Positions 3,246 to 36,572 of a stretch of 60,059 bases of DNA are shown piece after piece (position 1 is the stretch's first letter; each line of letters starts with the position of its first letter). The stretch is from a virus: positions 1 to 60,059 of IMG/VR virus record IMGVR_UViG_3300042465_001922. One strand, given 5' to 3'. The notes beneath the pieces were generated by a model that saw nothing but the letters and a program-made list of their open reading frames with translations, had not been told where the DNA came from and did no database searches. The translations under genes were made by a program, and so were the position numbers.

Positions 3246-3432
3246 CAGAGTTCTCCAAATTGCGCACGAGGTCTTCTACTAGTTGTTTTGCGGCGAGCAG
3301 CCCTCGGATCTTGCCGCAACTTTCTCGGTACTCGGCGTAGTCTTTCGGCTGGCCGCTACCTAGAAATTCTTGTGTCTGTGCAATTTGGTCGTCTAATTGA
3401 GAGGAAATTACTTCTAGCACTCTCGTTTCCAT
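3238..3432 (-). CDS. Small helical protein between portal and GroES-like genes
   Basis: A 64-residue, all-helical looking protein (METRVLEVISSQLDDQIAQ start) with YAEYRESCGKIRGLLAAK in the middle, a motif recalled from similarly placed small phage genes. It overlaps the GroES-like gene by 8 bases and follows portal by 3 bases, so it is part of one coupled run. Function unknown; the size and position would suit a small assembly factor, but nothing in the sequence proves that. Confidence 0.55.
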   Translation of the reverse strand: METRVLEVISSQLDDQIAQTQEFLGSGQPKDYAEYRESCGKIRGLLAAKQLVEDLVRNLENSDE

Positions 3433-3435
3433 TCA

Positions 3436-5814
3436 TTATCCTTTTGGTTTGAGTGTCTCTTTCAATATTGCGGTTTGGGCTTTCTTGTCTTCGCCGCGCT
3501 CTTTTGCTGCCAGTCTCATAGCCTCGCGTTTGTTCTCGGACATGATCCGCTCGCGCTCGATCTCCTGCTGCTGGGCCTTGAGAGTAAGTTCGGCCTGGTC
3601 CTTCTGGGCTTGCATCTGAAGTTTCTGAGCCTGAAGCTGGAGTTCCTGTTGCTGCATTTGGATAACAGGATCTTGCGCCTGGGCCTGAGCCTGCTGTTGA
3701 GCTGCTTCTGCCTGGTTCTTCTGGAGAAGCTGAGCCGAGGCTTGAGCCACGAGCTGAGACAGGTTGACTTCCACATCCTCTGGCAGGTTTTTGTCCGGCG
3801 GAGGCAGCGGAACACCCAACGTATTTTCAATATCGCGGCGATATTTGAAGCCAAGGTGTTCTGCGATGTGGGCCATGAGCGAAGCCTGAATCTGTTGAGC
3901 CATCGGGTTCTGGCCAATCGCTCCCATGATCTTGGGATCTTGCATCATCGTCTGGTGAACCGCGATGTGTGCGTCGTGATCTTGGTAAATAAATGCCTTG
4001 AGAGGTTTGCCCTTCAGAGCATTCATGTTTTCCGAGACCGGATCTACAGGCTTTTGATCGTCGATGGTCGGTACGAGCTTGGCTGCATCCTTAATGCCAA
4101 GGACGTCAAGCATCTGGCGGTGTAAAGCAGGAAGATCATAAATCTGAGGCGCGGATTGAGCCAGTTGAATAACCGCCTGATACTGGACAACTCGCTGCGC
4201 CATAGTGGCGGCGTTTGGATCAGAGACTGGGATGACTTCAACAAGGTCGTAATCACTTTTCTTTGCGCGGGGTGGTGCGTTCTGCGGTTCGTAAGCATAC
4301 GAGTCCTCCGTATAGTCACGGATGATGTTCTTCAGGAGTTTGAACTCCTGTTTCATCGCGTGATGGACCCTCGCCTGCACGGCACTCATGGTCTTCAGCT
4401 GTCTTTCAAGTAAAGCCAGAGTTGTGCCGACCGGAGCTTGTGCGCTCATATCGGACACTTTCATGTCTGCGACTGAGGCAAGCCGACGCGCTTCGTCGTT
4501 TACTTGATTGAGCAGCTGAAGAAGGGTCTGACTCGGCTCTTTATAAGGCAGAGTCATTATGTTGTCTTTAATCGCTCCACCGGGAATGTCCACATCTCTA
4601 AATTCACCTGGAGCAATCGGCGTGTCGTCTCCCTTTACTCGGAGACCTCGGGCTTTAAGCCCTCCTGGAAGGTTAGCCAGGGATCCTGCGTCAATAAGTT
4701 GACGTATAAGCGTCGTGCCTCCGCGAGCATACCCACCGATAATATGAATGAGGCCAAGGTTGTAAAAGCCAAAGCCGGGAATATAGCCATAGTGAACGAA
4801 ATGGGTCCGTTTAAGCTTAAGGGGGTCATCGGGATTCCAGTTTCTACGAATGGCGAGGACTGTTGAGGTCCCTTTATCAATCGTAACGATGTACGGGAGT
4901 GCGATTCCATCTTTATCCTCGTATCCTGGCAGGTCAAGGTCAGCTTGAATCTCAAGCAATGTATATCTGTCATCCGAAGTTAGCGTGAAGCCTGCCTCTT
5001 CCGCCTTCTTCCTTTCAATATCCGTCTGAATAAAAACCGGATCTCCAAGATCTACGTCGCGATAAAAGCCGGCGACCATCAGTCGCTTTAGTTCATTCTT
5101 TGTTTTACGCATTACATGTGTAATGCGCGGTGCTGTCTCTAAGTTAGAGGCGCCATAAGGAACAATCACATCTTCTGCGGTTACAAATAAAGAAACCTGG
5201 CGTCCAAGACTCGGATCGTAGTAAACCTTTTTAAATGCTGACCCCTGAAGGCCGAGAGAGTAGAGCAGACGCTCATGCTCGGGGCGGTATTCAACCATTA
5301 CTTCAGTCAGCTGGTAATTCATATCCTGCTGAACTCGCTCGGAGGCCTCTTCCTTAAACTTGTTAGGCTGACCTATGATCTTCGTTTTGACCGGTCCCTT
5401 GGCCGGGAAGGTCTCCATGATCGTCTCGGACTGGAACCTAATGGCTGCCTCAGAAAGCAGGGTGGAAAAAATCCCGCAGGCTCCGTTCCAGGGTTCGGTT
5501 CGTTCTTCGTATTTGATTCCAAGGACTTCGAGTCCTTTGACCAACATGTCCGCCCAGTCTTTTCGGGAGTTTTCGTCATTCTCTACATCTGATGTAAGCT
5601 CAGAGCCGAACTGGGTTAGCTCGGACTCATTCATAAATTCAGCTAGGTTGGCATCAAAGTCCGTCTCACCAAGCTCGCGAGGTTCAATATCAATCTCTAC
5701 CCCGTCCATCTTGATGGACATTGACTCCGGGTCTACAACCTCGATCTCAATTTCCTCGGCTGACTCTTCGTCGATCCCAATTGGGGCTTGGTATAGGGCT
5801 TTTTCAATCGCCAT
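3436..5814 (-). CDS. Portal protein (P22-like)
   Basis: A 792-residue protein that would form the dodecameric portal through which DNA is packed and ejected. After an acidic N-terminus it has the P22-like portal signature NSRKDWADMLVKGLEVLGIKYEERTEPWNGA region (about residues 82-112), then LSEAAIRFQSETIMETFPAKGP, YLEYRP-type VEYRPEHERLLYSLGLQG and FKKVYYDP. The last 130 residues are Gln/Ala-rich coiled coil (the barrel). Length is close to P22 gp1 (725). It lies directly downstream of the large terminase, the usual order. Confidence 0.9.
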   Translation of the reverse strand: MAIEKALYQAPIGIDEESAEEIEIEVVDPESMSIKMDGVEIDIEPRELGETDFDANLAEFMNESELTQFGSELTSDVENDENSRKDWADMLVKGLEVLGIKYEERTEPWNGACGIFSTLLSEAAIRFQSETIMETFPAKGPVKTKIIGQPNKFKEEASERVQQDMNYQLTEVMVEYRPEHERLLYSLGLQGSAFKKVYYDPSLGRQVSLFVTAEDVIVPYGASNLETAPRITHVMRKTKNELKRLMVAGFYRDVDLGDPVFIQTDIERKKAEEAGFTLTSDDRYTLLEIQADLDLPGYEDKDGIALPYIVTIDKGTSTVLAIRRNWNPDDPLKLKRTHFVHYGYIPGFGFYNLGLIHIIGGYARGGTTLIRQLIDAGSLANLPGGLKARGLRVKGDDTPIAPGEFRDVDIPGGAIKDNIMTLPYKEPSQTLLQLLNQVNDEARRLASVADMKVSDMSAQAPVGTTLALLERQLKTMSAVQARVHHAMKQEFKLLKNIIRDYTEDSYAYEPQNAPPRAKKSDYDLVEVIPVSDPNAATMAQRVVQYQAVIQLAQSAPQIYDLPALHRQMLDVLGIKDAAKLVPTIDDQKPVDPVSENMNALKGKPLKAFIYQDHDAHIAVHQTMMQDPKIMGAIGQNPMAQQIQASLMAHIAEHLGFKYRRDIENTLGVPLPPPDKNLPEDVEVNLSQLVAQASAQLLQKNQAEAAQQQAQAQAQDPVIQMQQQELQLQAQKLQMQAQKDQAELTLKAQQQEIERERIMSENKREAMRLAAKERGEDKKAQTAILKETLKPKG

Positions 5815-22730: not shown

Positions 22731-23351
22731 TTAGTCCTGTGATAGTTCAAAGTTGTTAACAACGAATCTGCCATAGGTTGGACGAAAATCCCCAATCCCA
22801 ATCAGCCGACCGCTCGTGTCAATCACATCCCGCAGTAGCACCGGATCAATGTACTCGGGCAGCAGAACCTGGAGGCTAAAGTCAGCAGTCCACCCCTGCT
22901 TCATAGCCGGACGGGTGCGATTGATACCGGCCCGCTGAATAGTTACGCGACACGTATGTAGGTAGTCCCAGTTGTCAACGCCCAGTGTGGACAAGTTGGT
23001 CAGCGGTACGATGCCGGCTTTAAACAGATCCATAGCTGATTTGCGTGGGCTGCGCGGGTCTTGTTTAAACTTGGCCGCATGAATGATCGCCTGGCGTAGA
23101 TACTCACCAGGTACGCATAGCTCCCCGTCACTGTTACGCCAGACATAAGACTCAATGTCATCGGTCTTCTTGGCTGCGCTGTTCTTGGATGCCTTGGACT
23201 TAGCCTCAACCGCCTCGCAGTTCCAGCGATGAAACAACATGTCCGATGTTCCCTCAAGTCTTATGTGTACCGCATACGGAAGGCTTGCTTCAATTGCCTG
23301 CTTTGCACCGTTTGTCTTTTCCGACACTACCTTTAAAGCTGTCTTACCCAT
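22731..23351 (-). CDS. Conserved phage protein with GIGDFRPTYGRF motif
   Basis: A 206-residue protein: VHIRLEGTSDMLFHRWN, GELCVPGEYLRQAIIHAAKF, INRTRPAMKQGWTADFSLQV and, near the end, GRLIGIGDFRPTYGRFVVNN. The order beta-strand, conserved helix, R-rich strand and late Gly-rich G.GD.RP..GRF loop recalls RAMP (Cas5/Cas7-like) nucleic-acid-binding folds, but this is only a visual resemblance. It is the gene directly behind the pentamer-periodic leader. Probably nucleic-acid binding; not assigned. Confidence 0.5.
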   Translation of the reverse strand: MGKTALKVVSEKTNGAKQAIEASLPYAVHIRLEGTSDMLFHRWNCEAVEAKSKASKNSAAKKTDDIESYVWRNSDGELCVPGEYLRQAIIHAAKFKQDPRSPRKSAMDLFKAGIVPLTNLSTLGVDNWDYLHTCRVTIQRAGINRTRPAMKQGWTADFSLQVLLPEYIDPVLLRDVIDTSGRLIGIGDFRPTYGRFVVNNFELSQD

Positions 23352-23383
23352 TTTTAATTCTCCTTGTTAAGTAAAAAACCACA

Positions 23384-23645
23384 CCACACACTTCCCTACC
23401 TGACCGCGACCAGCCTTACCTTAAAGTCTCATTGGAAAAACCAAACCTCACCCCACCTTGACCCACCTGGCCGGACCGGGCCTTACTTCGGCTCGCCGTG
23501 CCTCACCTTACTTAGTTTTTCCAATGAAACCTTGCCACACCAAACACGTGCCATGCCATTCCCAGCCCGACCGATCCAAACCAAACCGGGTAAAAAATCC
23601 ATGCCATGCCCCAGCTCACCATGTCCGACCGGACCATGCCGAGAC
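23384..23645 (-). repeat. Pentamer-periodic GNNNG array with internal inverted repeat
   Basis: A 294-base gap between two minus-strand genes. Cut into fives from 23442, 12 of 14 consecutive pentamers up to 23511 fit CNNNC on the plus strand (GNNNG on the transcribed strand); 23552-23586 gives seven of seven and 23600-23639 six of eight. The bases between are free, so it is not a simple tandem repeat. It is interrupted by TCATTGGAAAAAC (23429-23441) and its complement GTTTTTCCAATGA (23515-23527), which would bring two blocks together. Function unknown. Confidence 0.75.
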
Positions 23646-23873
23646 TTAGTCTTGCGTTAACTCCTTTATTCTGTTTTGCAGATGGTTGATATGAGCGGAC
23701 TGCTGCTCAATCCTTTCTTGATATCTACGCATCTGCATTCCTACGTCCTCAATCAGATGACCCAGCTTTATTGCAAACTCTCGGAAGTCTGCTGCATTTG
23801 ATTCTGGATCTGCACTAGGGGTATGCCCCCGTGCATACATATCTTCTGCAAGCTGAATCATGTCTCGGATCAT
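23646..23873 (-). CDS. Small coiled-coil protein, unknown
   Basis: A 75-residue helical protein. MIRDMIQLAEDMYARGHTPS is followed by a long amphipathic helix ending QQSAHINHLQNRIKELTQD. It overlaps the RHH gene by four bases and ends at the edge of the pentamer array. Function unknown; it might partner the RHH protein. Confidence 0.5.
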   Translation of the reverse strand: MIRDMIQLAEDMYARGHTPSADPESNAADFREFAIKLGHLIEDVGMQMRRYQERIEQQSAHINHLQNRIKELTQD

Positions 23874-27041: not shown

Positions 27042-27389
27042 ATGATCCAGCTTGAGCTACCGTACCCGCCGACCATCAACCACTATTGGGGGCAGTACGG
27101 CAACCGCCGTTTCATAGGGAAGAAAGGCAAGCAGTTCAGGATAGATGTGGCAGAGGCATGCCTTGAGGCTGGAATACAGACCCTAGAAGGCCGTCTTTCG
27201 GTACACGTAGCCCTCTGGCCCCCGGATAGGCGGGCAAGGGACGTAGACAATGTTTTAAAGCCTTTGCTTGACGCTTGTGAGCATGCCGGCTGCTTTGTGA
27301 ACGACAGCCAGATCGACGAGCTTCACATCATTCGGCAGGAGGTCCGTAAGGGCGGGGCCTGCACGATAGTAATCCTACCTATTTCCTGA
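27042..27389 (+). CDS. rusA: RusA-type Holliday junction resolvase
   Basis: A 115-residue RusA-family nuclease. LPYPPTINHYWGQYGNRRFI is the usual opening, and DRRARDVDNVLKPLLDACEH carries the paired Asp residues (D-x-DN) that bind Mg2+; GCFVNDSQIDELHIIRQEVR completes the core. It resolves four-way junctions made during recombination or replication before packaging. The ATG lies directly behind the type B palindrome. Its 3' end overlaps the convergent giant protein gene by 15 bases. Confidence 0.9.
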   Translation: MIQLELPYPPTINHYWGQYGNRRFIGKKGKQFRIDVAEACLEAGIQTLEGRLSVHVALWPPDRRARDVDNVLKPLLDACEHAGCFVNDSQIDELHIIRQEVRKGGACTIVILPIS

Positions 27390-30300
27390 TTCCTTGGCCT
27401 GACCAACCCGCTCATTGAACCGGGTCATGATGTCCGTGATCCGCTTATCAATGGCCTTGATGTCCTCTTTGGGGGCGTCCTTCTTGATCATCTCAGACTT
27501 CCGCCTGCGCAAAGCTTGAACCGTGCGCTCAACATTGTTGGCTGCGCCATACAGTCTGGCCTCGGGGTTTTCCCTAATATATTCATCCACGGGTTCCCGG
27601 TTCTTACGACGGCCCTTGATCTCGTTCTCATGCTCATTGATGAGTTTGATGTTGTCGTAGAACTTAGCGCTTTGAGCGGCCTGTCCTTTAGTCTCGCCAA
27701 CAAATCGGCCAACCAGAGGGATCTTATAGGTGGGCAGCTCTTCCCCTGTAACAGCAGCTGCTGCTGTTTGCTGGGCTTTTATAGCCTCCCGCCCAATACC
27801 ACCAAACGCTTGGCCGATTAGGTAATCAATCTGATCCGGAGTAGGACTGAACTTACCGGGCCGGAATTCGGTTCCACCGCTAGCATAGTTAAAGAATTCG
27901 GAAAGCTTCTTGCTAACCCAGCTTGCTGTGTCCTTAGCCCTGGTGTATCCAGGCGTTGGATCAAGACTGGAAATATCTTCCTTGGCGATTGTTTTCCCTG
28001 TCCAATCTTTGTTCTCAAGCAAAGCTACGGCTGGATCAAAAGGCGTTGGAGCAAAAGTTTGCCAAGACCAACCGGCGTTACCCAGCGGGTTAAACATCTC
28101 TAAAGCTGCACCGGTTATCTGAGCCACACGCTTTCCTGGATCTCTGAAATCATTCAATGCCCACTCGGTTCCAATCCTGGAAACAGTAGGAATGATGTTG
28201 AATCCAAGCGGCATGGGAATGGTGATGTATTTTCCATCTCCAATTGGGATAACAATGTTTCTATCCTTGATGAAATCGGGCGGCTCATCCTCATCAAACC
28301 CAGCAGCGGCCAGCAACATGGCTTGAGCTGATCCAAGAATCAAACCACCGTAGACAATCTTTTTACCAGCCGGACCACGAAGGGTCTGATACATCCTGGC
28401 CGTGCCTTGTACTGAAGCGTTAAAGAACGCATATAAAGCACCAACTTGCCGAGCTACCTGACCCTTGCGGTTAAAGTTAACCGTCAAGTTCTTTGCTACG
28501 GAAGCGGCCTGCTGCTTGCTTAATCCCTGATCCAGCGCTGCCTTGTAAGCGGCCAGGCGGACTGCATTCTCCATCGTCTCGTTGTAATCAGACAGCCAGT
28601 CAAAAATTGCCCGAGCAGACTTTTTGGCTTTACCCTCGGAAAGTTTTTTCAGCTCACTTGCCAGTGCATCACGACGCTCATCAGCTCGACTGAACTGATC
28701 ACGGAATCCCGTTTGGCCACCTTCTTTTTGGAACTCATCCCACAAGCTAGACCACTTCCCAGATGGAGGAGCTTTTCCGTCCCGTCGCGCCCGCAAATCA
28801 GCATAGATTCCGCGCAAGGCCGGCAACGTGTCAGCCATAACTTGCTTGGTTTTTCCTCTGATCGGAGTGTTTGTCAGATTAAGAGCTGCGCCTTGATAGT
28901 CACGTAAGAAGTTGATAGCACCAAAGATTGGGTTGTACTGCGTGTTAACCCTAGCAAAGTATCTGGTAACCACACCAAAAAACTCTAACGCTTTACTGAG
29001 CTGATCAGCATCCAGATTCTTAAGTGCAGTCGCCATGCGAATTGCACGGGGATCTTTTGTGTTAAAGAAAACAAACTTATCTTCGCCATTTACGCGAACG
29101 GATAAAACATTCTCTGCGCCACGTAATGTTGGATTGATTCCATGAATAACCGAATTGGTCGTTGGATCAACGTACGACCGAGTCGGCTCTTTCATAATGT
29201 TGGCCGCATCAGCCGGATTAATTCCCATCGACTGTAACTGTTGAACCGTCTTGAGAGGATCTTTGATGGCCTTGGGGTCTACCGCAAACCAGAAGTCAGT
29301 GTTTGGGTGTTGAACAGCTAAGCCATAAATTGCCTGAGATACACGGTTTTTTTCTGAACGGACAATTGCCCGCTCTCTTTGCATAGCGATATTGGCAAGG
29401 ATGTCTACTACCTGGCGACTAGAGCCAGCAGCCCTCTTGCTGGTAGGGCCACGGACACTGAAGCCCTGGCCAATACCGCGACCGATATTGCTAAGCTCGT
29501 AGTCCATCTCTTCTCGGGCAAGAGGTATGTAGTTCTTGTAAGAATTTTCCCAAGCCTGAATTGTTGCCGGATCTTCAATGCCGTTTTGAATCAATGTCTG
29601 CCGTGTCTTGGCTGTAATGGCGTCAACCTTTTTGGCTATTGACTCTAAGTCCTTGCGCTTTTGAGGAGACAAAGCATCTAAATATTTATTAGCATCGTCA
29701 GTAAAAATCCCTGACCCGCCGTCTGGCATAGCTGGATTTACTTTGGCGACTTGAATGTTCCGTTCTTTAGCATGACGGTTGTGCAGATACTCTTCGACAT
29801 CGGCAATTGTAAATTTTTTAGCATTAATTTCTTTAAGCAGCGGAGTAAGTTCTTTTTGTATAAAGTCATTTGTCTGCTTAGCTGTACGCCCGTGGTATAA
29901 CTCCTCTTGGAGATACGCATTCCAGCGATCCTGAAGCTTGCCTCTTGCCTCTTCAATATTAGCAATGACCCGCTTAGTATCAACCATCTTGTCTTGCAAC
30001 CGATAGATGACGTTATCGGTCTTGGTGTCATCTGGACGACCCCAAGTAGACTGTGATGCAGGTTGACCAAAAATATTTGTTCTAGCAAATAACGCTATCT
30101 GAGCTTCTTCATTGCTTGTTATTGGGGCGCCAGGAGAGGTTGCAACATTTTTAACCTCCATAATTGGCATGGTAAATAGCTCATTTGATAAGCCAAGAAC
30201 CTCTGAAAGGGTAGTTTCTTTAGATTTTGGAAGGCCAAGAAACTGTCTAATTGTTTCTACAAACTTGTCCCATACGCTTGTATTTTTGTATGGGATTGCT

Positions 30301-32864
30301 TCCATGTATTTTTGCATCTCTCGGCTGGTCATACTCCAGGCCAAGACTTCATCAGCATCATCTAAATAGTTTGCGCCTTTGTATATGCGAAGTTCAAAAT
30401 CATTCAGCTCGCCTTTGCCTTCTTTAAAAGCTTTTACCCGCGAGTTGTAGTGTTTGATAATTGTATTGCTTACGTCATTAAGACGTTTAGCAAGATCAGC
30501 AGCTTGAGTTCCAGCAAGTTGTTTTGTTCTTCCAAGAAAAAGCGATCCCTGAGTTACCGAATGAATTAACTCATGAAGTACTGTGTCGTATGTGGTTCCA
30601 ACTAATTTTGGGTCGCTATTGTCATTCAACCAAATTGTCAGGCTTTTTAAATTGCCAGTCTTGGTATCTACTCGTGACACTGAAATGCCATTAGAAGACA
30701 ACAAACGAACTGGTACTCGGTCACCAATTTTTGCAATCTTTAAATCAAAAGTAACACCAGAGTCCATCAATTTTTCCATGCGATCAACAACACGCTTGGC
30801 AATCATTTGATAGTCTTGGGTTGGAGCGTTAGATGCCATCCATTTGGCCGCCTCTAACGGAGTCTTTCCATCTAGCGCTTTTTGAATCTTCTCGGTTTCG
30901 TCTTTTAGGTCACCTTCAACCAATGGTTCTGCTCCAGCAGCAGATTTTTCAACGGTTTCTGTGTCGCTGTTAAAAAGTTTTAATTGATCGGCTCTTTCGG
31001 CCACGCTTGGAGTGCGCTTCGGAGTGATCTGGGATATGCCCTCGGCACCAAATAAATCTCCTGTAACAGCGGCTTCACGCTCAGGAACCTGTTGCTGTAG
31101 TTGAAAAAGATCGCGCTCTCGGTCAGCAATTGCCTTTTCTTCTGGAGAAGGTGCTGCCTGGCGAGTGATTATTTGCTCCGACGGCTCTCCCTCCGGAGTA
31201 ATACGTTCTGTAATACCTCCAGCTGTGACGATTTCGGGAGCTGTCTCAGCAACTCTAGGGCCTTCTTCTGCTGCGATTTCGGCTGCGATGGCATTGGCTT
31301 CTTGTCTGATTTGTTCATCCGTCATTTCCCTCGCAAGTAATTCTTCAATTTGCGCTAAATCCGTATTGAGTTTGCGCAGGCTTATATCGGTCTCAAATGT
31401 CAGATAGTTCTGATTCCGAATCTTGTCTTTGATGTACTCAACCGCTTCGGTTTCACGCCCAGGCGCCTTGAGTTCTGGATCAAGAAAGTCGTCTAGCTGG
31501 TTAGTGTTTGCTAACACATCAGCGATGTTCTCTCCCTCGCCACGCTTAGGCGACATACGGAAGACCCTGGCAACGCCCGGCTCCGGGGAGATGTCAAATA
31601 CTTCTGACTCACTAAGCCTGTTGCGCAACACGGTGGCCAGGCTTGGGCCTTTATCCCGCATGGCACGGCTAATATCTTTTTCTGCTGCCGCCTTCTCAGC
31701 TTTAAGTCCAGCAATTTCTTCCGGCTCTGGGGGCAGCTCTTCAGAAATGTATGGCCGAGTCTCGGTGGGAATTTCTGGTGCGGCTTCAAGTTCGGCTGAG
31801 GCTTCTGCCATCCGGCGTTGAGCTTCAGGCAAGCCTGGTACAGCCTCTGCTGCCGTGGGTTCTGGCATCAAGCCTAGCGCTTTGAGAGCCTCTTCTTCTG
31901 GGGCCATGCCCGGCTCAGTCGCCTCAATAGCCTGCTCTCTAGCAAGACGCTCCGGTGCAGACTCCGCAGCCTGTTGCTTGAGATCTTCTTCTTTCTCTGG
32001 GGACGGAGTTTCTTTACGGCCGCTTAGAACCTCTCTAGTAGCCTGAACGCCACCACCTAATCCGCCACCAACGATGGCGCCTTCCAGCATCCGTTCACCA
32101 AGTTCTTTTGGATCAACTCCTTTGATCGTGCCAGCTGTCTCACCCAGGTATGCGGCACCTTCTTCAACGGCCTCAGTTCCTCCCTGAACGCCTGTTTCTT
32201 TCGCCAACCTGCCGGTGCGGGTTTGTGATTCAGCGCCTTTACCAAAGCGTTTTGTAGCAAATCTTTCTAATGTTGCCTCTGTTATGGCCGCACCAGCTGC
32301 CGCTGTTACATCACCAACAGTAGCGTCATTTAGTGTCTTGTTGTCATTCTTAACCCGTTCATCCAGGATTTCTTTAGTCCTTGCACCTATGTACGGGGCA
32401 AACGCATACACCGCTGCTGCCATGTCTGGGGTGGATGTAATAACACGCTCAGCAATAAACGGTACTGCATTTAATGGATTGTCAGCTAAATCGCTTAGCT
32501 TGGTGCTGGGGCTGTAACCAATATTCTTTTCAACATCCCGCAACGACCCAGCCAGGTTAAACAGGGGTTGAAGCTGTTTTTCGCTTTTAATCTGTTCGGG
32601 TGGAATGTTACTTAAAGGAATCTTAGATTCCATAAAGTCACCAGCCCGTTCGGCCACTTCAGCAACCGCCTCTACACCCGATGCAGCAAGACCAGCTGCC
32701 CTTCCCAATGCTCCCATTAAGGGATTTTTTGTCCCGCCTGGTGGGGCGCCTAGCCCAGGCATTTGTTGTATGACCGCCTGGTAAGCCTGAGTGTCATCTA
32801 ACTCTACTGGAGACTCAACGCGAAAGGTCCCCTGTCCTGGGATGTCAATCCGGTAAACCGGCAT
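27375..32864 (-). CDS. Giant LPD38 polyvalent/ejection protein with HELIH motif
   Basis: An 1829-residue protein, the largest in the window. The N-terminus (MPVYRIDIPGQGTFRVESPV) and first 300 residues are Ala/Gly-rich membrane-active looking sequence (IVGGGLGGGVQA). Residues about 300-640 are Glu/Pro-rich linker. HELIH at residues 764-768 (TVLHELIHSVTQG) is a zinc-metallopeptidase motif. Residues about 1430-1560 match the LPD38 domain (NAVRLAAYKAALDQGLSKQQ, then FNASVQGTARMYQ). Such proteins are carried in the virion and injected with the DNA. The peptidase could process the host wall or host proteins. Confidence 0.75.
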   Translation of the reverse strand: MPVYRIDIPGQGTFRVESPVELDDTQAYQAVIQQMPGLGAPPGGTKNPLMGALGRAAGLAASGVEAVAEVAERAGDFMESKIPLSNIPPEQIKSEKQLQPLFNLAGSLRDVEKNIGYSPSTKLSDLADNPLNAVPFIAERVITSTPDMAAAVYAFAPYIGARTKEILDERVKNDNKTLNDATVGDVTAAAGAAITEATLERFATKRFGKGAESQTRTGRLAKETGVQGGTEAVEEGAAYLGETAGTIKGVDPKELGERMLEGAIVGGGLGGGVQATREVLSGRKETPSPEKEEDLKQQAAESAPERLAREQAIEATEPGMAPEEEALKALGLMPEPTAAEAVPGLPEAQRRMAEASAELEAAPEIPTETRPYISEELPPEPEEIAGLKAEKAAAEKDISRAMRDKGPSLATVLRNRLSESEVFDISPEPGVARVFRMSPKRGEGENIADVLANTNQLDDFLDPELKAPGRETEAVEYIKDKIRNQNYLTFETDISLRKLNTDLAQIEELLAREMTDEQIRQEANAIAAEIAAEEGPRVAETAPEIVTAGGITERITPEGEPSEQIITRQAAPSPEEKAIADRERDLFQLQQQVPEREAAVTGDLFGAEGISQITPKRTPSVAERADQLKLFNSDTETVEKSAAGAEPLVEGDLKDETEKIQKALDGKTPLEAAKWMASNAPTQDYQMIAKRVVDRMEKLMDSGVTFDLKIAKIGDRVPVRLLSSNGISVSRVDTKTGNLKSLTIWLNDNSDPKLVGTTYDTVLHELIHSVTQGSLFLGRTKQLAGTQAADLAKRLNDVSNTIIKHYNSRVKAFKEGKGELNDFELRIYKGANYLDDADEVLAWSMTSREMQKYMEAIPYKNTSVWDKFVETIRQFLGLPKSKETTLSEVLGLSNELFTMPIMEVKNVATSPGAPITSNEEAQIALFARTNIFGQPASQSTWGRPDDTKTDNVIYRLQDKMVDTKRVIANIEEARGKLQDRWNAYLQEELYHGRTAKQTNDFIQKELTPLLKEINAKKFTIADVEEYLHNRHAKERNIQVAKVNPAMPDGGSGIFTDDANKYLDALSPQKRKDLESIAKKVDAITAKTRQTLIQNGIEDPATIQAWENSYKNYIPLAREEMDYELSNIGRGIGQGFSVRGPTSKRAAGSSRQVVDILANIAMQRERAIVRSEKNRVSQAIYGLAVQHPNTDFWFAVDPKAIKDPLKTVQQLQSMGINPADAANIMKEPTRSYVDPTTNSVIHGINPTLRGAENVLSVRVNGEDKFVFFNTKDPRAIRMATALKNLDADQLSKALEFFGVVTRYFARVNTQYNPIFGAINFLRDYQGAALNLTNTPIRGKTKQVMADTLPALRGIYADLRARRDGKAPPSGKWSSLWDEFQKEGGQTGFRDQFSRADERRDALASELKKLSEGKAKKSARAIFDWLSDYNETMENAVRLAAYKAALDQGLSKQQAASVAKNLTVNFNRKGQVARQVGALYAFFNASVQGTARMYQTLRGPAGKKIVYGGLILGSAQAMLLAAAGFDEDEPPDFIKDRNIVIPIGDGKYITIPMPLGFNIIPTVSRIGTEWALNDFRDPGKRVAQITGAALEMFNPLGNAGWSWQTFAPTPFDPAVALLENKDWTGKTIAKEDISSLDPTPGYTRAKDTASWVSKKLSEFFNYASGGTEFRPGKFSPTPDQIDYLIGQAFGGIGREAIKAQQTAAAAVTGEELPTYKIPLVGRFVGETKGQAAQSAKFYDNIKLINEHENEIKGRRKNREPVDEYIRENPEARLYGAANNVERTVQALRRRKSEMIKKDAPKEDIKAIDKRITDIMTRFNERVGQAKESGNR

Positions 32865-35486: not shown

Positions 35487-36572
35487 TTATACCCGAGTAT
35501 ATTTCTGAGGGTTAATTTGCTTGCCTTGTTTGGTTGTACCAGTCCGAGCTTTTCGAACCTTATCCATCATGTCGTAAAGCACATCTGCGCCTGCGTCTGA
35601 GTTGCCATTACCTAAATGAGACACCACATCTGCCGGAATTACAAACTCTCCGTGCGATAGACGGGCGGGCTGTTTGCCATCAATGTCGGTCTTAATCTTG
35701 TCGGCCATTCCGTCCGTGCCGCCACGGAGATAACGAGCTGCACGACCACCCTGGGCAAGATCCATCAAACCACCGCCTGCTGCTTGAATAAACTTGGTAC
35801 CCTCGCCGGGTTTACCACGGACTGCTGTGAATTTAGGAATCTCTCCCTTGTAGCCAACCGGACCTTTAGCAGCAGAACCTTTGCCCAACAATCCCATAAG
35901 TCCACCAAGCAGTGCTGCTAGTAGCGCATCTTGTTTGTTGGGGCCGGTGGTGGTCAGTCGATTAATAACATCTGTTATTTTTTGAGTGATGGTGTTGGTT
36001 CCGCCAGGAGTTGGCGGCCCTTGAATAGTGCGAGTGCTTCCATCTGGATTGCGAATTGTCGTTGTGTTTGTCTTGGGGTCATAGATAGCATTTTTGGTAT
36101 TTCCGTAGAAACCACCCTCTTGAGCTTCGGCATCTCCACCTCGGCCCCCTGTACCGTATGGATACAACTCTTTGTATAAGTCTTCCCCGAGCTGTTGTTT
36201 TACATACTCATCGCTTTGCTCTGGACCTGAGTATGTTCCTTCTTGTAATTCTTTTATATCCTGTGCTGAGTAACCAAGACCGGCATATGGATCTGATTCC
36301 ACATCTGGAAGCATTCCACTTAGATCGCCTAAGTCAAGTCCGTACAAACTCATATCTGGGCTTATGTCGGACAGATCAAAACCAAAACTGTCTCCTAGAC
36401 TGCTTAGATCAATTCCCAACCCGCCATATGAATCGCCACCAAAATCTACGTTTGACCAATCAAAACCACCTAAGTCAACACTAGGAATATCAAAGCTAGA
36501 TGGGAATCCTTCGAACCCACCTCCAGGTAGATACGAATCGTAGTTTTCATCAAAAAAACTGTAATCGGCCAT
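35487..36572 (-). CDS. Virion protein with LSHGEFVIPADVVSHLGNGN tail
   Basis: A 361-residue protein; ATG at 36572 is preferred to one 14 codons upstream that has no SD. The first 130 residues are Asp/Gly/Ser/Phe-rich and disordered (many DLGGFDWSN-like repeats). Then comes a hydrophobic patch (LLAALLGGLMGLLGKG) and a well-kept end, ARLSHGEFVIPADVVSHLGN and ADVLYDMMDKVRKARTG, seen in a large family of phage virion proteins. The hydrophobic patch might insert in the host membrane. Confidence 0.55.
   Translation of the reverse strand: MADYSFFDENYDSYLPGGGFEGFPSSFDIPSVDLGGFDWSNVDFGGDSYGGLGIDLSSLGDSFGFDLSDISPDMSLYGLDLGDLSGMLPDVESDPYAGLGYSAQDIKELQEGTYSGPEQSDEYVKQQLGEDLYKELYPYGTGGRGGDAEAQEGGFYGNTKNAIYDPKTNTTTIRNPDGSTRTIQGPPTPGGTNTITQKITDVINRLTTTGPNKQDALLAALLGGLMGLLGKGSAAKGPVGYKGEIPKFTAVRGKPGEGTKFIQAAGGGLMDLAQGGRAARYLRGGTDGMADKIKTDIDGKQPARLSHGEFVIPADVVSHLGNGNSDAGADVLYDMMDKVRKARTGTTKQGKQINPQKYTRV

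Follow-up and report, generated by a model that had tools for sequence, protein, structure and literature searches.

What does a stretch of phage DNA with a strict five-base beat encode? In the window, the whole 60,059-base stretch of viral DNA analysed here, such a segment fills the gap between a 75-aa ORF (23646-23873) and a 206-aa ORF (22731-23351). An earlier reading made from the sequence alone took it for a leader in which G recurs every five bases, with free bases between, and proposed that a protein binds along it. The segment is more than a leader. It is very probably a set of about four VIPR guide RNAs arrayed on the strand of vipr, with that gene on one side and an upstream phage operon on the other, and its "free" bases would be guide letters, which in relatives match targets with a 1 nt skip. 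Support for this identity comes from the array itself, from its strict association with Vipr, from the family and fold of the protein, and from the relatives' target matches at a 1 nt skip. By its sequence, the locus is a further phage carrier of this recently described system.

The first report of VIPR is a preprint of April 2026 (PMC13142463). The system consists of a phage-encoded ancestral RAMP protein, Vipr, and vrRNAs of 9–16 YNNGG repeats; through their NN letters these RNAs read double-stranded DNA, passing over one target base in each repeat. Further traits are a glycine-rich loop, a Thumb domain and a conserved 3' tail, and a vap gene is typical but not universal (PMC13142463). Published carriers are Escherichia phage SUSP1 and a Pseudomonas fulva prophage (PMC13142463; PDB 36pp), and the systems are divided into seven types (PMC13142463). 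The preprint presents VIPR as an RNA-guided system that predates CRISPR and uses a new gapped code, and phages are believed to silence their competitors with it; its natural targets are satellites and prophages, with lysogeny regulators frequent among them (PMC13142463).

The five-base rhythm follows a GGYNN consensus

Comparison with shuffled controls, the check proposed for the rhythm, showed it to be real. On the minus strand, GG pairs recur at a lag of five 26 times, against 8.0±2.6 and at most 18 in 5000 dinucleotide shuffles (z≈7), and letter identity at lag 5 in the leader reaches 126, against 76±7 in dinucleotide shuffles. A pentamer-chain search found a single array in the whole window (23376-23640, minus strand; score 76.7), while the top chain among 20 shuffled windows scored 18.6. 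The strand that carries the array is also the sense strand of the 206-aa gene. Four units, A to D, hold 43 pentamers, 41 of which begin with G, 36 with GG and 32 with GGY. The pattern had been noted as GNNNG; the rhythm stands, with the stricter consensus GGYNN, where Y is C or T. Along the minus strand, the features run as follows.

23596..23640, minus strand: predicted vrRNA unit A, 9 pentamers (GGCAT GGTCC GGTCG GACAT GGTGA GCTGG GGCAT GGCAT GGATT), starting 5 nt past the stop codon of the upstream ORF 23646-23873
23527..23587, minus strand: predicted vrRNA unit B, 8 pentamers (23548-23587), one 6-nt slip, then 3 pentamers (23527-23541)
23515..23527, minus strand: inverted-repeat arm TCATTGGAAAAAC, after unit B; predicted RNA folding pairs it with the second arm
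23438..23507, minus strand: predicted vrRNA unit C, 14 pentamers, with the inverted repeat on both sides
23429..23441, minus strand: inverted-repeat arm GTTTTTCCAATGA, after unit C; predicted to pair with the first arm when the RNA folds
23376..23420, minus strand: predicted vrRNA unit D, 9 pentamers, then TTTACTTAACAAGGAG, then the vipr start codon
22731..23351, minus strand: vipr gene, predicted from profile match and model fold to encode a 206-aa RAMP protein with the C-terminal glycine-rich loop GRLIGIGDFRPTYGRF

The guide letters of unit A read AT CC CG AT GA GG AT AT (TT). Repeat numbers agree with the published 9–16 beside vipr, although the repeats are imperfect: 9 in A, 8+3 in B, 14 in C and 9 in D. 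Because several pentamers are off-motif (GACAT, GCTGG, AGTAA, GTCAA, TGTGT) and unit B contains a 1-nt slip, some of the window's units may be decayed.

The perfect 13-base inverted repeat described earlier is present (23515-23527 / 23429-23441) and flanks unit C; it is formed by the short tails that follow the repeat tracts. The predicted fold of the leader RNA has a z of only -1.6. The window leader had no match in Rfam. Among nine related loci none reached the Rfam gathering threshold, so these nine contain no hammerhead of a known family. Separately, the Alicyclobacillus Vipr loci L189 (7937-9129) and L190 (9593-10736) each carry three very regular guides, followed by a clearly conserved, structured-looking tail.

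A G-rich array could also be a structural element. The motif GGNNNGGNNNGGNNNGG formally fits a two-layer G-quadruplex, and such runs are present in the window. Quadruplexes can form with loops other than three bases and without a pyrimidine at position 3, and a quadruplex or other G-rich structure would leave the tie to Vipr and the target matches unexplained, which makes this reading extremely unlikely.

The adjoining gene encodes a Vipr-family protein

Profile and fold together identify the 206-aa protein as a RAMP of the Vipr family. A PDB profile search with its family returned a single match, 36pp_D ("SUSP1 Vipr protein"; E 9.8e-12, 171 positions). The alignment runs through the glycine-rich loop, placing the loop of the window family against GVGDWRPRFGRF of SUSP1 Vipr, so that the protein shares both the RAMP homology and the glycine-rich loop of published Vipr. 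Residues G181, G185, D188, R190, P191, G194 and R195 are invariant across 26 relatives. An AlphaFold2 model of the protein has a pLDDT of 83, and its best Foldseek matches are all Cas7-type CRISPR proteins; the SUSP1 Vipr structure 36pp is absent among the matches listed. Pfam holds no family for the protein, and PHROGs places it in a family of unknown function.

The suggestion that a ring-shaped protein or multimer reads every fifth base survives in one form. The RAMP-like 206-aa protein, as a multimer, fits this role, since it belongs to the Vipr family, and GGY/NN RNAs have been co-purified with Vipr proteins (PMC13142463). The TRAP ring and the neighbouring RHH and SSB-like proteins are not supported.

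Beside vipr no accessory (vap) gene conserved in this clade was seen, and none of the genes next to the window's vipr is kept across the family. Elsewhere in the window, a 1829-aa ORF (27375-32864, minus strand) is related to giant phage proteins that include a DarB-like antirestriction family.

GGYNN arrays accompany vipr across phages and bacteria

Relatives of the 206-aa protein were gathered from 35 viral loci and 34 loci from bacterial assemblies, giving 69 loci that include some near-duplicates. GGYNN arrays lie within 1.5 kb of the vipr-family gene in 68 of the 69, and the lone array-less locus (L188) is a contig that starts inside that gene. Array strand follows the gene: 116 arrays share its strand and 1 is opposite. 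Over 3664 pentamers from these relatives, position frequencies are G.89, G.81, C+T.88, then N and N; all 16 dinucleotides are used at NN, and all are common. Unbroken runs reach up to 34 pentamers. The rhythm is thus kept while the letters vary, the outcome that the sequence-only reading had called decisive. Very long arrays of about 143–147 pentamers also occur near vipr, in L279 (minus strand, 3309-4019) and L014 (2455-3192).

These data bear on three other readings of the segment. One holds that it is a decayed simple-sequence repeat or the iterons of a replication origin, and the array does sit in a recombination module (with ERF, SSB-like and exonuclease genes). Against this, in phages and bacteria of many kinds GGY is fixed and every one of the 16 NN dinucleotides is common, which upholds the earlier argument against simple slippage; the origin role, raised earlier as possible, is not supported, as the arrays are bound to the vipr strand and their NN letters match genes of other phages. 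We put the chance of a repeat or origin close to negligible. The second reading, a leader bound by TRAP, was rejected: it calls for NAG triplets with 2–3-base spacing, whereas the consensus here is GGY-NN, and the arrays follow the vipr gene and its strand.

In the third reading, translation is regulated as by TRAP, through Vipr (or another ring or multimer) attaching to GGYNN repeats in the leader of its own mRNA. Such a cis-acting leader would suit the window, where unit D ends near the vipr start codon and the units lie upstream of the gene. But across the 69 loci arrays lie downstream of vipr (53) as well as upstream (62), and the NN letters are kept between near twins and match genes of other phages, for which a leader has no need. 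We regard a cis-acting leader as very unlikely in place of guide RNAs; autoregulation by Vipr might still arise as a side effect of the array.

Guides of relatives match phage genes with a 1 nt skip

Long matches to phage genes indicate that the 1 nt skip code holds in the window's Vipr family. The first comes from the phage of locus L038, whose Vipr is about 72% identical to that of the window. Its guide, written in codon pairs, reads I D G (H/Q)(H/Q) P A A L (S/R)(S/R) G E F V. When IMG/VR was scanned for 9 of the guide's 15 NN, only two phage contigs came up, and both match the guide with a 1 nt skip at 29/30 bases over all 15 NN; of the 12 bases outside the search pattern, 11 agree in both. 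Controls on the fetched DNA (skips of 0, 2 and 3; shuffled order) reached at most 22/30, the guide's own array at skip 3 set aside. The window has a homologue of the targeted gene at 35490-36572 (minus strand). Of the two target phages, one has many proteins in common with the window phage (a head protein is 84% identical) and yielded no Vipr gene. At the corresponding site, the window itself agrees with the guide at 23/30 bases, and a near twin of the window phage at 25/30.

Two prophage guides converge on one small gene of a third contig.

L186 2116-2334, minus strand: 73-aa HTH_17/AlpA-like gene, on a Phycisphaerales prophage contig that itself bears Vipr

Without pattern selection, the L171 guide matches this gene at 28/30 bases, and the L175 guide matches it at 19/20 bases about 60 bp away; shuffled guides reached maxima of 23/30 and 17/20 in the respective tests. 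The encoded HTH_17 domain scores above the Pfam cut-off and the protein also passes for AlpA, in agreement with the frequent lysogeny-regulator targets of the preprint (PMC13142463). In the L038 and the L171/L175 target matches alike, the skipped base is the codon wobble position.

The evidence for the 1 nt skip sits in these few long matches rather than in a whole-set count. Collapsed near-perfect matches of all guide windows numbered 32 at skip 1 versus 31 at skip 0, with 16–29 for shuffled guides. Local target searches covered fetched DNA of about 2 Mb and 0.8 Mb, and skip 1 gave no overall excess over controls. Allowing ≤3 mismatches, no match to an Alicyclobacillus guide turned up in 15 Alicyclobacillus genomes.

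One window guide has a candidate target

The window's own guides were searched by an exact 8-NN scan of IMG/VR, which matched 56 stretches for guide A, 24 for B, 7 for C, 2 for D and 3 for guide E of the near twin. Most guide A matches fall, in many IMG/VR contigs, on the antisense strand of one conserved motif, IMPSMRGM, with the skip at the wobble base. Pfam and PHROGs identify the protein, from one member tested, as a B12-dependent (class II) ribonucleotide reductase. This phage enzyme is a candidate target of guide A, with perhaps an even chance of being the true one, because the next NN on either side do not fully extend the matches and a conserved motif in an abundant family may multiply one coincidence. 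Matches of guides B, C, D and E in IMG/VR look like chance, with no clear family and no extension.

Near twins differ by a two-unit module

The near twin, L004, carries a Vipr 99.5% identical to that of the window and two extra units, 140 bases in all, inserted at a unit boundary (L004 3530-4000 compared with window 23349-23660). The tails of the extra units match the flanking inverted-repeat tails. Between the shared arrays, pentamer position 3 changed in 5 of 43 cases and the other four positions in 3 of 171 (Fisher p 0.009), so that NN is held about as tightly as GG. These counts show that the supposedly free NN letters are conserved over the short time separating the two phages, as expected of guide letters.

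The 140-base difference suggests a way for guide sets to evolve. In this Vipr clade, guides could be traded as cassettes, in which paired units with reverse-complement tails (CATTGGAAA / TTTCCAATG) form a hairpin-bracketed module gained or lost whole. We consider this possible but doubtful. If true, guide repertoires would change without a CRISPR-like acquisition machine. Near-twin phages that differ by a whole two-guide module make the question of guide acquisition testable.

Proposed mechanism and significance

By analogy with published VIPR (PMC13142463), the array transcript would yield vrRNAs, along each of which Vipr subunits would line up, one per GGYNN pentamer. Each subunit would hold GGY and present NN, and the NN letters would base-pair to double-stranded DNA in the pattern NNxNNxNN, where x is a skipped target base. 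The bound Vipr-vrRNA complex would then repress the target gene of a competing phage. The matches reported here add independent sequence evidence for the 1 nt skip code in Vipr relatives far from SUSP1.

Comparison with known systems

The window locus resembles published VIPR in its RAMP protein of about 200 aa with a G-rich loop, in the adjoining GGY/NN pentamer arrays, and in relatives' guides that match phage genes with a 1 nt skip at the wobble position. It differs in that its Vipr family is remote in sequence from SUSP1 Vipr (profile E 1e-11), its clade shows no conserved vap gene, and its guide tails, judged from the window alone, form an inverted repeat around unit C. Class 1 CRISPR effectors (Cas7/Csm3, type VII Cas7, Cas7-11) share the fold of the window's Vipr model, but they have a 6-nt period where the array has 5 nt, and the window has one small protein; neither CRISPR repeats nor further cas genes were noticed. 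The TRAP leader RNA, (K/N)AG-NN, likewise has repeats paced by a protein, at intervals of about five bases, in the RNA upstream of a gene. Unlike it, the window array is built on GGY rather than NAG and goes with a RAMP rather than a TRAP fold, its NN letters are informative, and Vipr arrays have many units and also occur downstream of the gene.
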